Shown here one piece after another: positions 2,009-15,200 of a stretch of 35,173 nucleotides of DNA. Position 1 is the first letter of the stretch. Each line of letters opens with the position of its first letter. The translations under genes were made by a program, and so were the position numbers. Source of the DNA: a virus. Where the stretch lies: positions 1 through 35,173 of IMG/VR virus record IMGVR_UViG_3300023174_000392; one strand, 5' to 3'. The notes beneath the pieces were generated by a model. That model saw only the letters and a list, made by a program, of their open reading frames with translations. It had not been told where the DNA came from and made no database searches.

Positions 2009-2029
2009 CTTATTATGATACAAAAGTTA

Positions 2030-2038
2030 TGATATAAT
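2030..2038 (+). promoter_or_regulatory. Extended -10 promoter of HNH/tRNA cassette
   Basis: TGA-TATAAT (2030-2038), an extended -10 element. The HNH ATG (2045) follows after exactly six bases (TAGATA). There is no convincing -35 box. Closely similar elements precede the two other HNH genes of the window (13997-14005 and 23816-23824). Confidence 0.7.
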
Positions 2039-2044
2039 TAGATA

Positions 2045-2443
2045 ATGAAAATATGTGGAACTTATTCAGGATATACAACTCATGGTAAAAATAAAGAAAA
2101 ACCATGCGACAGTTGTAGATTAGCAGCAAATAAATATCGTAGAGAAAAAAGAGCAAAAGATGTTAAATCTTTAGGATACGATCCACGTAGATTTAAAAGG
2201 CATAATATAACAAAAGATCACTACGATAGTCTGTTTGTTAAATATAATGGAAAATGTTGGATATGTAAAAGTTATAACGCAATACATATAGACCATGATC
2301 ACTTATGTTGTTCTGGTAACTGGTCTTGTGGCAATTGTATTCGTGGTTTGCTTTGTAGTAATTGTAATACAGCTATTGGTTTATTTAAAGATAATAAAAT
2401 ATTATTGATTGAAGCAGTTAAATATTTAAGTAAGGAGCAGTAG
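2045..2443 (+). CDS. Endonuclease VII-like HNH endonuclease, ends inside tRNA-Ile
   Basis: The 132-residue protein has the recombination endonuclease VII layout: basic N-terminus with CGTYSGY and CDSC, then a zinc/HNH core with CWIC, IDHDH, a CC..C..C run and RGLLCSNCNTAIG, then an Ile/Leu-rich tail. The HDH histidines are the expected catalytic residues. It has its own leaderless promoter. Its UAG stop (2441-2443) is bases 8-10 of tRNA-Ile, so the last codons (KEQ) are also tRNA acceptor-stem sequence. It resembles the HNH protein at 23258-23809 in the core. In phages such solitary nucleases are typically mobile (homing-type) genes or junction resolvases; mobility is inferred here. Confidence 0.88.
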   Translation: MKICGTYSGYTTHGKNKEKPCDSCRLAANKYRREKRAKDVKSLGYDPRRFKRHNITKDHYDSLFVKYNGKCWICKSYNAIHIDHDHLCCSGNWSCGNCIRGLLCSNCNTAIGLFKDNKILLIEAVKYLSKEQ

Positions 2444-3195: not shown

Positions 3196-3696
3196 ATGGA
3201 AGAGATGATAAATAAACTTAAAGAGTTGCTTGCAACTTCAATTGCACTTCAGCATAAGGCACAGGGATACCACTGGAATGTAGAAACTGATGACTTCCCA
3301 CAATACCATGCATTTTTTGGTGAAATCTATGAGGCCATTGAGGAATCAATTGATCCTATGGCAGAATGGATTCGTATGCTTGGTGCTTATGCTCCATTTA
3401 AACTTTCACGTTTAGTTGCACTAAGTACACTTCCAGAAACAGACGTTACAACAGATCATGAAGATATGTCTGCTGATCTACTAAAAGATCATAAGGCTGC
3501 GGCAGATGCTTTTGGTGCTGCTTCTATAATGGCTGCTTCAATGGGACAAAAAGGACTTGAAAACTTCCTTGCAGATTGCCAAGCAACTCATCAAAAGTAT
3601 GTATGGCAACTTACAGCAATTGGTTCTGAAGCATTGATGGAAGCATCAACAGAAAATATGGAACCTGCTGGTTCAAGACTTCCTGAACAGGATTAA
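3196..3696 (+). CDS. dps: Dps-like ferritin-family protein
   Basis: The 166-residue protein has the Dps four-helix pattern: QHKAQGYHWNVETDDFPQYHAFFGEIYE, then EESIDPMAEWIRMLG, then two further helices. The H..W..... H......E/D arrangement matches the Dps inter-subunit ferroxidase site. Dps proteins form 12-subunit shells that oxidise and store iron and may protect DNA from oxidative damage. It starts at 3196 from a leaderless-type promoter and is followed two bases after its stop by the HAD gene. In a phage it might protect injected or replicating DNA, or be virion-associated; neither is shown here. Confidence 0.82.
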   Translation: MEEMINKLKELLATSIALQHKAQGYHWNVETDDFPQYHAFFGEIYEAIEESIDPMAEWIRMLGAYAPFKLSRLVALSTLPETDVTTDHEDMSADLLKDHKAAADAFGAASIMAASMGQKGLENFLADCQATHQKYVWQLTAIGSEALMEASTENMEPAGSRLPEQD

Positions 3697-3698
3697 TC

Positions 3699-4070
3699 TT
3701 GTCAACAATAGTTGATATTGACGGAACACTTCTTCGTAATGGTAATCAACCTATTAAAAGAGTTATTGAATACGTTAATTCCCTTCCTGGCTCTATTATC
3801 ATTGTTACAGGTCGCCCTCAAAGCGCTAGAAAAGAAACTGTAGCAGCTTTACGTAATGCGGGAGTTAAGTATTCTAGATTAATTATGAATCCTGGTTCAT
3901 CTGCAGAAACTGCTAAGTATAAATATGAAGTTGGTAAAAGATTACGTTCTCAGGTGTCATTAGCCATTGATAATAATCCTACTATGAGGGCAGCATATGC
4001 TAAGGCTGGTATTCCTACAAAAGATCCAGCGCATTTACCAGATATGAAAAAGTTTTGGACTATACAGTAG
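3699..4070 (+). CDS. HAD-family phosphatase
   Basis: This starts with TTG (no ATG fits) behind AGGA and gives a 123-residue product. Motif I is VDIDGTLL (residues 4-11), motif II is IIVTGRPQ, and a late VSLAIDNNP with an acidic residue fits motif IV. A basic residue for motif III lies between (KYKYEVGKR). The length suits small phage HAD proteins related to polynucleotide kinase 3'-phosphatase domains; the substrate is unknown. It follows dps in an operon and its last 11 bases overlap the convergent methyltransferase gene. Confidence 0.82.
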   Translation: MSTIVDIDGTLLRNGNQPIKRVIEYVNSLPGSIIIVTGRPQSARKETVAALRNAGVKYSRLIMNPGSSAETAKYKYEVGKRLRSQVSLAIDNNPTMRAAYAKAGIPTKDPAHLPDMKKFWTIQ

Positions 4071-13104: not shown

Positions 13105-13521
13105 TTAGTTTATTGCTATTTGTTTTGGCTTTTTATCTTCAGGAATGATACGATCTACATTAATATGTAGCATACCATCCTTTAGTTCTGCCCCAGTTAC
13201 TTCCATATATTCACCAAGAGCAAATGATCGTACAAATTTACGACCAGCAATACCCTTGTGAACTACTTCAGCATCTGTTGACTCTACAATTTCACCCTTG
13301 ATAATCAATGTACCATTGTCTACAGAAACATCAATGTCTTCTTTTGAAAATCCAGCAAGAGCGATTGAAATCCTGTATGTATCTTCATCTAATTTTAGAA
13401 GATCATATGGAGGGTATGATTGTGAATTGATTTTGTGTGCATTGTTAAGACGACCCAACTCTCTGTTGAATCCAATAAAAAAAGGATCATTGAATAGATC
13501 CATTGCAAAGTTTGTTACCAT
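13105..13521 (-). CDS. hsp20: Small heat-shock protein Hsp20/IbpA-like
   Basis: 138 residues with the alpha-crystallin domain: YDLLKLDEDTYRISIALAGFSKEDIDVSV, NGTLIIKG, RKFVRSFALGEYMEVTGAEL and DGMLHINVDR, ending IPEDKKPKQIAIN. The N-terminal NDPFFIGFNREL fits IbpA. Such ATP-independent chaperones hold unfolded proteins as oligomers. Phage copies are well known, notably in cyanophages, and may aid virion assembly. The start at 13521 has AAAGGGG upstream and a leader of about 50 bases from an extended -10 promoter next to tRNA-Gly. Confidence 0.92.
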   Translation of the reverse strand: MVTNFAMDLFNDPFFIGFNRELGRLNNAHKINSQSYPPYDLLKLDEDTYRISIALAGFSKEDIDVSVDNGTLIIKGEIVESTDAEVVHKGIAGRKFVRSFALGEYMEVTGAELKDGMLHINVDRIIPEDKKPKQIAIN

Positions 13522-13591: not shown

Positions 13592-13667
13592 TGGAGCAAA
13601 AGACGAGACTTGAACTCGCAACATCTACCTTGGCAAGGTAGTACTCTACCAATTGAGCTACTTTTGC
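13592..13667 (-). tRNA. tRNA-Gly(GCC), CCA encoded
   Basis: On the minus strand, acceptor GCAAAAG/CTTTTGC, T8 A9, D arm GCTC/GAGT, anticodon stem CTACC/GGTAG with loop TTGCCAA (anticodon GCC), and T arm GCGAG/CTCGT. Discriminator T is followed by CCA at 13594-13592. The first ten bases are shared with the end of the upstream HNH gene, whose UAG stop is tRNA bases 8-10. Confidence 0.93.
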
Positions 13668-13990
13668 ATACGATTCCATGTCCGTGCCTTATGGCAATTA
13701 GAACATATTAAATCGCATTTATTTATTTCTTGTATAACTTGATCTATAGTACCAGAACTTGCTAGCCAACTAACAGTTTTTATTTTATTATCTTCTGTAT
13801 GGTCATACTCCATTATATAATATGGATATTTTATTCCACAGTCCATACATGGATTAGATTCTTTTTGTTTACGTACATAATCTCTTACTTTTTCTCTATA
13901 TGTTTTATTTTTTTGTTTATTTTTTTCTATATTTTTAATGTAAGATTTTCTTTGTGCTTCTTTTTGTTTTTCTTTATCTTTATAAGGCAT
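13658..13990 (-). CDS. HNH endonuclease, ends inside tRNA-Gly
   Basis: 110 residues. A highly basic helical N-terminus (YKDKEKQKEAQRKSYIKNIEK) is followed by CMDCGIKYPYYIMEYDHTEDN and CDLICSNCHKART, i.e. two CxxC zinc pairs around the D-H catalytic core of the HNH family seen in many phages and plasmids. It differs from the endonuclease VII-type HNH proteins at 2045 and 23258. It lies between tRNA-Asn and tRNA-Gly. Its last codons MQK and UAG stop are also the tRNA-Gly 5' end. It has its own leaderless extended -10 promoter. A mobile-endonuclease role is inferred. Confidence 0.85.
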   Translation of the reverse strand: MPYKDKEKQKEAQRKSYIKNIEKNKQKNKTYREKVRDYVRKQKESNPCMDCGIKYPYYIMEYDHTEDNKIKTVSWLASSGTIDQVIQEINKCDLICSNCHKARTWNRMQK

Positions 13991-13996
13991 GGTTCA

Positions 13997-14005
13997 ATTA
14001 TATCA
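13997..14005 (-). promoter_or_regulatory. Extended -10 promoter of the second HNH/tRNA cassette
   Basis: TGA-TATAAT on the minus strand, six bases (TGAACC) before the HNH ATG at 13990, so the message is probably leaderless. It lies just beyond the 3' end of tRNA-Asn (14033). Same element and spacing as at 2030-2038. Confidence 0.7.
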
Positions 14006-14032
14006 TACATTTAGAACCTTTTATATAAATTG

Positions 14033-14105
14033 CTGGTCTGGCAGGTCACGATCCTGCGACATCCGAATTAACAGTTCGGCGCTCTACCAACTGAGCTACA
14101 GACCA
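14033..14105 (-). tRNA. tRNA-Asn(GUU)
   Basis: On the minus strand, acceptor TGGTCTG/CAGACCA, D arm GCTC/GAGC, anticodon stem CCGAA/TTCGG with loop CTGTTAA (anticodon GTT), T arm GCAGG/CCTGC, discriminator G. CCA is not encoded. It starts seven bases after the subtilase stop and probably relies on read-through from that operon. Confidence 0.93.
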
Positions 14106-14112
14106 AAACCTA

Positions 14113-15000
14113 TTACTTCAAAAGCGAAGAATATTTTCCTGTTTTTGGTAGTGATGCTATAAAAACATCCCAAGATTCAGTTTTAATTTTACCCACTGCC
14201 ATAGATGCTGCTACTGCAGTTGCAACCGAAGTCCCACTCATTGCAGTCAGAACACCACGGTAGTCTGGAATTTTTAAACATGCTGCTCCAACAAAATCAA
14301 TACACACTCTTGAAACAAGACTTGTTGTATCATTAATATTACTGCTTGGAACTACTGTTCCATCAGCAACGGCACCTGCTACAGAATAAACCCCTTTTAC
14401 ACAAGCAGGAAAACCAATTTGATTTTTCTTAGAATCATTTCCAGTCGCTACAAAAGTTGCAATATTATTTGACTTTAAGGTTGCAACGGAAGATTCAAAT
14501 AAAGTATCTACAGGACAAGTACCTACTGCAAAATTACTTCTAGATTGACTAATAGATACAGCCTTTATATTAAACTTAGTTGAATTATTAGATACCCAAG
14601 CAAGTGCACGAGCCAAAGATCCGCCATCGTTGCGAATCATAGAAAATGTATCATAAACTTTCTCATCAGAGATACGAATAAATACAATTTTAATATTAGG
14701 ATTAATTACTGTTGCAATTTTTGACATATTAAAACCATGATCTGCACCTTTAATACTAAAATCTTTGATTGCTGCAGTGCCTTTTCCTTCAGAAAAAGAA
14801 TAAGTGCCTTTTGAATCTTTTAGCATTTGTCCATTTGGGCAAGTTGCTAATGTAAAACAGGCCTCATATACTATATTTGTAAACTTTGATGAATCAATTG
14901 CTGAATCAATAATTGCAATTGTTTGTGACTCTGCTGCTTGTGCTGGTTGAACCAATGTAAGTCCAAGTACTACTACCAATAAACCCACTGCTTTTTTCAT
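14113..15000 (-). CDS. Sec-exported subtilisin-like serine protease
   Basis: The start at 15000 (MKKAVGLLVVVLGLTLVQPAQA) is set by AAGGAG; a longer frame upstream has no site. Residues 1-22 are a clear signal peptide, cleaved after AQA. The peptidase S8 triad is complete: D32 in IAIIDSAID, H88 in GADHGFN, S258 in MSGTSVATA, with oxyanion N188 in ATGND. The mature enzyme (about 270 residues) has several cysteines fit for disulfides. A secreted protease is unusual cargo for a phage. It might process the exported proteins encoded nearby or attack host surface proteins. It follows a small Cys/His protein gene with overlapping ribosome site and stop. Confidence 0.9.
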   Translation of the reverse strand: MKKAVGLLVVVLGLTLVQPAQAAESQTIAIIDSAIDSSKFTNIVYEACFTLATCPNGQMLKDSKGTYSFSEGKGTAAIKDFSIKGADHGFNMSKIATVINPNIKIVFIRISDEKVYDTFSMIRNDGGSLARALAWVSNNSTKFNIKAVSISQSRSNFAVGTCPVDTLFESSVATLKSNNIATFVATGNDSKKNQIGFPACVKGVYSVAGAVADGTVVPSSNINDTTSLVSRVCIDFVGAACLKIPDYRGVLTAMSGTSVATAVAASMAVGKIKTESWDVFIASLPKTGKYSSLLK

Positions 15001-15008
15001 TTTTCTCC

Positions 15009-15200
15009 TTATACAATAAGACGGACTACATGGCAACATGGGTCACCACCGTCATCCCACTCTTTTATCTCTTCTTCACTCATATACTCATAACCACCAT
15101 CATGAGTATTACAATAAGGATCTGTTATCCATCCTCTTTCAATACCGTTTGAAAGCCAAATCATAAATTCGGCATCTTCAGTTTCGTTTTCTATGTGCAT
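15009..15200 (-). CDS. Actinophage small Cys/His protein, leaderless
   Basis: Sixty-three residues: FMIWLSNGIERGWITDPYCNTHDGG, then MSEEEIKEWDDGGDPCCHVVRLIV. 'W...gi..GwitdPyC.tHdg' with 'DPC.HvvR' is a pattern I recognise from many actinobacteriophage and actinobacterial proteins of unknown function. It is transcribed from a consensus promoter with six bases between -10 and ATG. Its stop overlaps the ribosome site of the subtilase gene, so the two are probably expressed together. Confidence 0.82.
   Translation of the reverse strand: MHIENETEDAEFMIWLSNGIERGWITDPYCNTHDGGYEYMSEEEIKEWDDGGDPCCHVVRLIV

Follow-up and report, generated by a model that had tools for sequence, protein, structure and literature searches.

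A probable homing-type HNH endonuclease gene inserted at the 3' end of a viral tRNA gene

The MobA-E endonucleases of phage T4 resemble the nuclease gene described here in being of the HNH type, free-standing, intergenic and sometimes overlapping with neighbouring genes; they differ in their insertion sites (e.g. nrdA/nrdB), and the overlaps described for them involve upstream protein genes rather than tRNAs. Closer in location is SegB, a free-standing homing endonuclease of the GIY-YIG family residing in the tRNA region of phages T4/T6, which is horizontally mobile and is found in association with many tRNA isotypes (PMC2988022, PMC13096335), cutting inside tRNA genes at the motif RAWTSGAAC (PMC13096335). 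When compared in this analysis, that motif reads as the complement of the T-arm sequence GTTCSAWTY. Our locus shares with SegB the placement of a free-standing nuclease gene between tRNA genes, and departs from it in three respects: the protein is HNH and not GIY-YIG, cutting has been shown for SegB and is predicted here, and the parts of the SegB texts that were searched describe neither tRNA overlap nor stop recruitment. Phage tRNA arrays are already known to contain HNH genes, which in mycobacteriophages and mycobacteria are the most widespread coding genes of such arrays and have been proposed to spread tRNA genes; those papers proceed without insertion edges, empty sites, overlap, stop recruitment or rewritten stems (PMC5966550, PMC6409571). 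Neither recruitment of a stop from a tRNA nor the rewriting of tRNA stems was described in the open-access text covered by a limited search. A further relevant precedent is I-TevI, the promoter of whose gene is overlapped by a sequence similar to the homing site that mediates autorepression (PMC2988022).

The window analysed here is the whole of a 35,173-base virus record, for which a search of isolated phages with the window DNA gave no close match. Reading along the minus strand, an S8 peptidase gene (14113-15039) is followed by tRNA-Asn(gtt) (14032-14105), an HNH endonuclease ORF of 110 aa (13658-13990), tRNA-Gly(gcc) with an encoded CCA (13592-13667) and an Hsp20 gene (13105-13521), so that the HNH gene lies between tRNA-Asn and tRNA-Gly, as the preliminary description had placed it; both tRNAs were called by ARAGORN and Rfam, and tRNA-Asn was further delimited by alignment with an empty site (L076). 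The same description had the ORF ending ATG CAA AAG TAG inside the 5' end of tRNA-Gly, and ARAGORN, Rfam and the ORF coordinates bear this out in every detail: the ten shared bases, GCAAAAGTAG (13658-13667, minus strand), are tRNA-Gly positions 1-10, and the TAG stop occupies positions 8-10. Both flanking tRNAs are intact. A group I intron or other structured-RNA element was considered and ruled out, since the Rfam scan returned four tRNAs and no other structured RNA and neither flanking tRNA is interrupted. The T-loop of tRNA-Asn is itself unusual, reading GGATCGTGACC in place of GGTTCRANTCC; its GGATC is common to many relatives devoid of the HNH gene, and GGTTC is kept in others.

The protein matches the PHROG profile of HNH endonucleases phrog_3106 (E 4e-22), and Cys48, Cys51, His64, Cys96, Cys99 and His100 are invariant among its relatives. 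Its AF2 model, a confident one (pLDDT 88.9), has as best PDB match the Gme HNH nickase, a weak hit (E 0.33), and the whole is an HNH (His-Me finger) fold with intact active-site residues. No GIY-YIG domain family was matched, and the PHROG assignment to HNH therefore sets the protein apart from the SegB family. Homologues retrieved by tBLASTn occur in phages of Streptomyces, Mycobacterium, Pseudomonas and others. One of them, in Pseudomonas phage nickie (L474, 887-1274), is unannotated in the record and ends at position 8 of a tRNA-Met.

With the Hsp20 gene as a handle, relatives were located in which the site is empty: in about 40 Hsp20-linked relatives tRNA-Asn and a tRNA-Gly stand 1-4 nt apart with no HNH gene between them, and several of these also carry the S8 peptidase gene upstream of tRNA-Asn. 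The nearest empty sites (L076/L081) are 95.9% identical to the window over tRNA-Asn, 96.1% over tRNA-Gly and 95.5% over the next 70 nt. Related genomes thus either carry the HNH gene at this conserved locus or lack it, a pattern that characterizes homing genes. The inserted cassette (13668-14029, minus strand; about 361 nt net) is what has no counterpart in these relatives; it starts 2 nt past the tRNA-Asn 3' end and consists of a 41-nt leader, of which 2-3 nt are old spacer, and then of the ORF up to base 1 of the resident tRNA-Gly. The ORF overlaps tRNA-Gly because the genes of the array are so closely packed. Other sequences were seen in or beside such arrays: a non-HNH gene between tRNAs in L071, non-coding inserts of 177 nt (3392-3568) and 129 nt (3642-3770) splitting the tRNA-Asn/Glu/Gly array of a relative (L115), and a different nuclease-like ORF (149 aa) ending 8 nt before the same tRNA-Asn (2305) in another (L126).

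The edges of the insertion were examined in seven pairs of HNH-bearing and HNH-less genomes, namely the window and six cultured Streptomyces phages with HNH homologues, each with close HNH-less relatives. Homology on the left ends between -1 and +2 nt from a tRNA 3' end in all seven (Ala, Asp, Ser, Ser, Trp, Arg, Asn), and on the right it resumes between -18 and +7 nt from the ORF end. One edge of the cassette is thus fixed at the 3' terminus of the upstream tRNA, and the other coincides with the ORF end. The stop codon is within target DNA in four of these comparisons (Bartholomune, EGole, KentuckyRacer and the window), that of Bartholomune being supplied by a ten-base duplication of the tRNA-Ala 3' end; a tRNA stands at the right edge in none of the six mapped Streptomyces insertions. 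Phabba compared with Myrna has its right edge at a tRNA-Met, the left side being too diverged for mapping. These alignments point to the upstream tRNA's 3' end as the insertion target, rather than to the downstream tRNA's 5' end. Streptomyces phage CeilingFan (L689) carries another HNH gene (742-1050) two genes past the tRNA-Arg that is occupied in KentuckyRacer.

A survey shows that HNH genes overlap tRNA 5' ends in excess of other genes. The sample comprised tRNA-bearing contigs only, chosen by tRNA patterns with positions 8-10 left open and hence blind to HNH; genes were called with a simple caller and HNH genes were identified by their own sequence. Twelve of 30 HNH genes overlapped a tRNA 5' end, against 25 of 2,740 other genes (P 3e-16), a test made conservative by spurious ORFs in the control count. 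The excess persists when gene ends from -60 to +50 of the tRNA 5' end are considered (17/30 against 149/2,740; P 5e-14), when one gene is kept per 50%-identity cluster (overlaps in 9/24 against 20/2,412; P 1e-12) and inside tRNA arrays only, where the counts are 11/15 for HNH genes and 16/83 for others. A separate sample drawn with the HNH profile had 20 of 79 homologues adjoining a tRNA and 59 of 79 not doing so. Taken as a comparison of sequences, these counts support repeated targeting of tRNA genes by HNH nucleases as a real process, and this part of the preliminary description, which had argued for a repeated process and not chance, stands on the enrichment and the empty sites; the argument it had used, the register of the junction, does not.

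That register is shared with a second cassette in the window, in which an endonuclease VII-type ORF of 132 aa (2045-2443, plus strand) ends AAG GAG CAG TAG inside tRNA-Ile(tat) (2434-2507, plus), its last ten bases being bases 1-10 of the tRNA, which is directly abutted by tRNA-Arg(tct) (2508-2581, plus; both tRNAs by ARAGORN and Rfam). As had been observed, the junction geometry at tRNA-Gly and tRNA-Ile is identical, with the third-last sense codon of each ORF ending on base 1 of the tRNA, and the two nucleases are indeed of different families, phrog_3106 HNH in one case and endonuclease VII (PF02945, E 3e-17; phrog_2633) in the other. tRNAs conserve U8, A9/G9 and G10. Within a viral-contig sample picked by tRNA sequence alone, 59% of 1,157 different phage tRNAs have a stop codon at positions 8-10, 4% being expected from base composition; the register is equal because this conserved stop ends most ORFs that enter in that frame. 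Among genes overlapping tRNA 5' ends, the stop falls at position 8 in 7 of 12 HNH and 14 of 25 non-HNH genes (P = 1), so that this ending is no commoner for HNH ORFs than for other overlapping genes, and the CepT-like gene of cyanophage S-RSM4 likewise stops there. Position-8 stops recur within the same HNH family (Phabba and nickie tRNA-Met, PHB09 tRNA-Gly as called by ARAGORN, and tRNA-Asn in L020), and both nuclease families also include members with stops elsewhere (3, 4, 8, 13, 20, 35, -7, -9, -12 and others). Since unrelated genes stop at position 8 equally often and family members stop elsewhere, the register is uninformative about a common process, and we rejected it as a sign of common origin. 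A small gene with the motif MKYMGFEEDM and variants was also found to end repeatedly at tRNA-Asn position 8 (L183, L221, L303, L305).

The high frequency of position-8 stops among overlapping non-HNH genes is also what would be expected of ordinary gene gain, the alternative that fares best. The ORF would have entered the array by illegitimate recombination and lost its stop, the TAG of tRNA-Gly serving by chance, with neither homing nor targeting; the tightness of phage tRNA arrays and the occurrence of a non-HNH gene between tRNAs in L071 agree with it. It leaves unexplained why HNH genes are over-represented about 70 times at tRNA 5' overlaps and why the left edge is the same in all seven comparisons, and we regard it as unlikely. 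A nuclease that recognizes positions 1-20 of the downstream tRNA and inserts just before them would account for the clustering of stops near tRNA 5' ends in several lineages, for instance before tRNA-Ser(tga) with the upstream tRNA 300-900 nt off; given six Streptomyces insertions whose right edges are free of tRNAs and whose left edges all coincide with a tRNA 3' end, we consider 5'-end homing quite improbable. The preliminary description had offered homing next to tRNAs or capture of a tRNA by the nuclease, and only the former is supported, through the empty sites and the enrichment: joint mobility of HNH and tRNA-Gly as one cassette, to which the ten common bases would predispose by making the one tend to move with the other, is scarcely credible, since relatives have the 96%-identical tRNA-Gly and the same downstream DNA with no HNH gene, tRNA-Asn and tRNA-Gly are adjacent there and split by the cassette here, so that no tRNA was captured, and homologues end beside many different tRNAs or none.

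The leader of the HNH cassette holds a dyad, GGTTC-N18-GAACC (13991-14018, minus strand), a putative operator that ends directly before the ATG and is the sole copy in the window. Between its arms lies a predicted extended -10-like promoter element, TGATATAAT (13997-14005, minus strand), 6 nt before the ATG. A dyad of the form GGTTC-N16-21-GAACC, 0-16 nt before the ATG, occurs in 10 of 24 clusters of the MPYKD subfamily, as against 0.9% of random windows, other MPYKD members having a TATAAATA-like element between the arms; KentuckyRacer and some other homologues have a different inverted repeat at the same place. Zinc-ribbon HNH genes as a whole are not enriched for the dyad in the HNH-blind sample (1/19 against 30/2,740). 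On these sequence comparisons the dyad is a mark of the MPYKD subfamily. As a unique marker it failed, a scan of viral contigs for the strict form yielding mostly chance sites, with an HNH gene behind 2 of 120 loci; both of these overlap tRNA-Ser. Derivation of a dyad arm from the neighbouring tRNA was likewise rejected, the resemblance not being significant overall except for tRNA-Arg(ACG).

An mRNA from the -10-like element would be leaderless or nearly so. The transcript would thus start past the dyad, making an operator likelier than an RNA hairpin. Here there is a likeness to I-TevI: the dyad surrounds the -10-like element with arms that read GGTTC, as tRNA T-arms do, so that autorepression through the dyad may be envisaged. 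I-TevI differs in being an intron-encoded GIY-YIG enzyme whose operator binding was measured, whereas the present case is one of sequence conservation with a tRNA resemblance that is not statistically firm. The endonuclease VII cassette has a repeat of its own at the same place but of different sequence, the direct repeat TTATGATAC-N5-TTATGATATAAT (2013-2038, plus strand), six bases before the ATG; it is kept in 7 relatives (L057-L063), with minor changes in two. No clean empty site of this cassette was found among 80 DUF5872-linked loci. Over residues 3-39 the endonuclease VII-type protein is similar to the C-terminal portion of WhiB-like regulators from phages (phrog_22267, phrog_12112).

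Some of the tRNAs beside the cassette have been rewritten, the case resting on three pairs with near-identical flanks. The tRNA-Arg of KentuckyRacer differs from that of Starbow at 14 positions, all lying in the anticodon stem or the T-arm, and the two flanks show 0/95 and 0/55 changes; over bases 1-26 and the upstream flank it is identical to its counterparts in Starbow, CeilingFan and Karimac, and the ACG anticodon is kept. Bartholomune and NootNoot differ in tRNA-Ala by 9 changes, all in the T-arm, whose stem is still paired, with 0/42 in the rest, and EGole and Peebs in tRNA-Asp by a single change, again in the T-arm. These changes fit a short conversion around a cut in the tRNA 3' half, and the rewritten stems may protect the carrier. 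When all pairs are taken together the T-arm half shows no significant excess of changes (30/224 against 33/294 in the rest of the tRNA, P 0.5), and the T-arm of the window tRNA-Asn is identical to that of the empty-site relatives, with no rewritten stem; rewritten stems are therefore a lead and not a result. In another locus (L549, about 2300-2377) a tRNA-Gln(CTG) stops short in its T-loop and continues directly into the dyad that precedes an HNH gene; the 3' part of the tRNA was not found in the next 400 nt.

Taken together, the edges, empty sites and enrichment suggest that 13658-13990 is probably a free-standing HNH gene of the homing type, with the 3' half of tRNA genes as its target. In the mechanism that we propose, the nuclease would cut the 3' half of the tRNA gene, presumably the T-arm region, in cassette-less phages, and repair from the carrier would copy the cassette into the cut phage. 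The cassette of about 361 nt, comprising a dyad that would frame its own promoter and then the ORF, inserts flush with the tRNA-gene 3' end, here that of tRNA-Asn, and extends no further than the ORF. It often comes devoid of its own stop codon and uses the first one met in the target DNA; with the next gene 3 nt past tRNA-Asn, the recruited stop is the TAG at tRNA-Gly positions 8-10. The carrier's own tRNA would stay functional and be spared because its stems differ. RNase P cuts before tRNA base 1. Its cut in the HNH/tRNA-Gly transcript would remove the last three codons, including the stop, so that a single transcript could scarcely serve for both nuclease and tRNA, a trade-off that may keep the nuclease in check; folding of the HNH-led precursor RNA did not show the cloverleaf to be clearly lost. 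It is tempting to speculate, as a possibility about which we are doubtful, on a natural cleave-and-rescue element in which the nuclease would attack the T-arm, paired changes in the anticodon and T-stem would render the carrier tRNA uncuttable, and at overlaps the RNase P cut at tRNA base 1 would take away the nuclease stop and damp its synthesis through non-stop mRNA.

What was a curious junction is now a mapped insertion event with defined edges. A general caution also emerges, in that ORFs running into tRNAs tend to stop at the TAG of positions 8-10, so that a shared register is no proof of shared origin. The existence in culture of matched carrier and non-carrier Streptomyces phages makes homing into tRNA genes directly testable. 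If the rewritten stems do represent immunity, they would show how a selfish nuclease can exploit an essential-type RNA gene and yet leave it intact.
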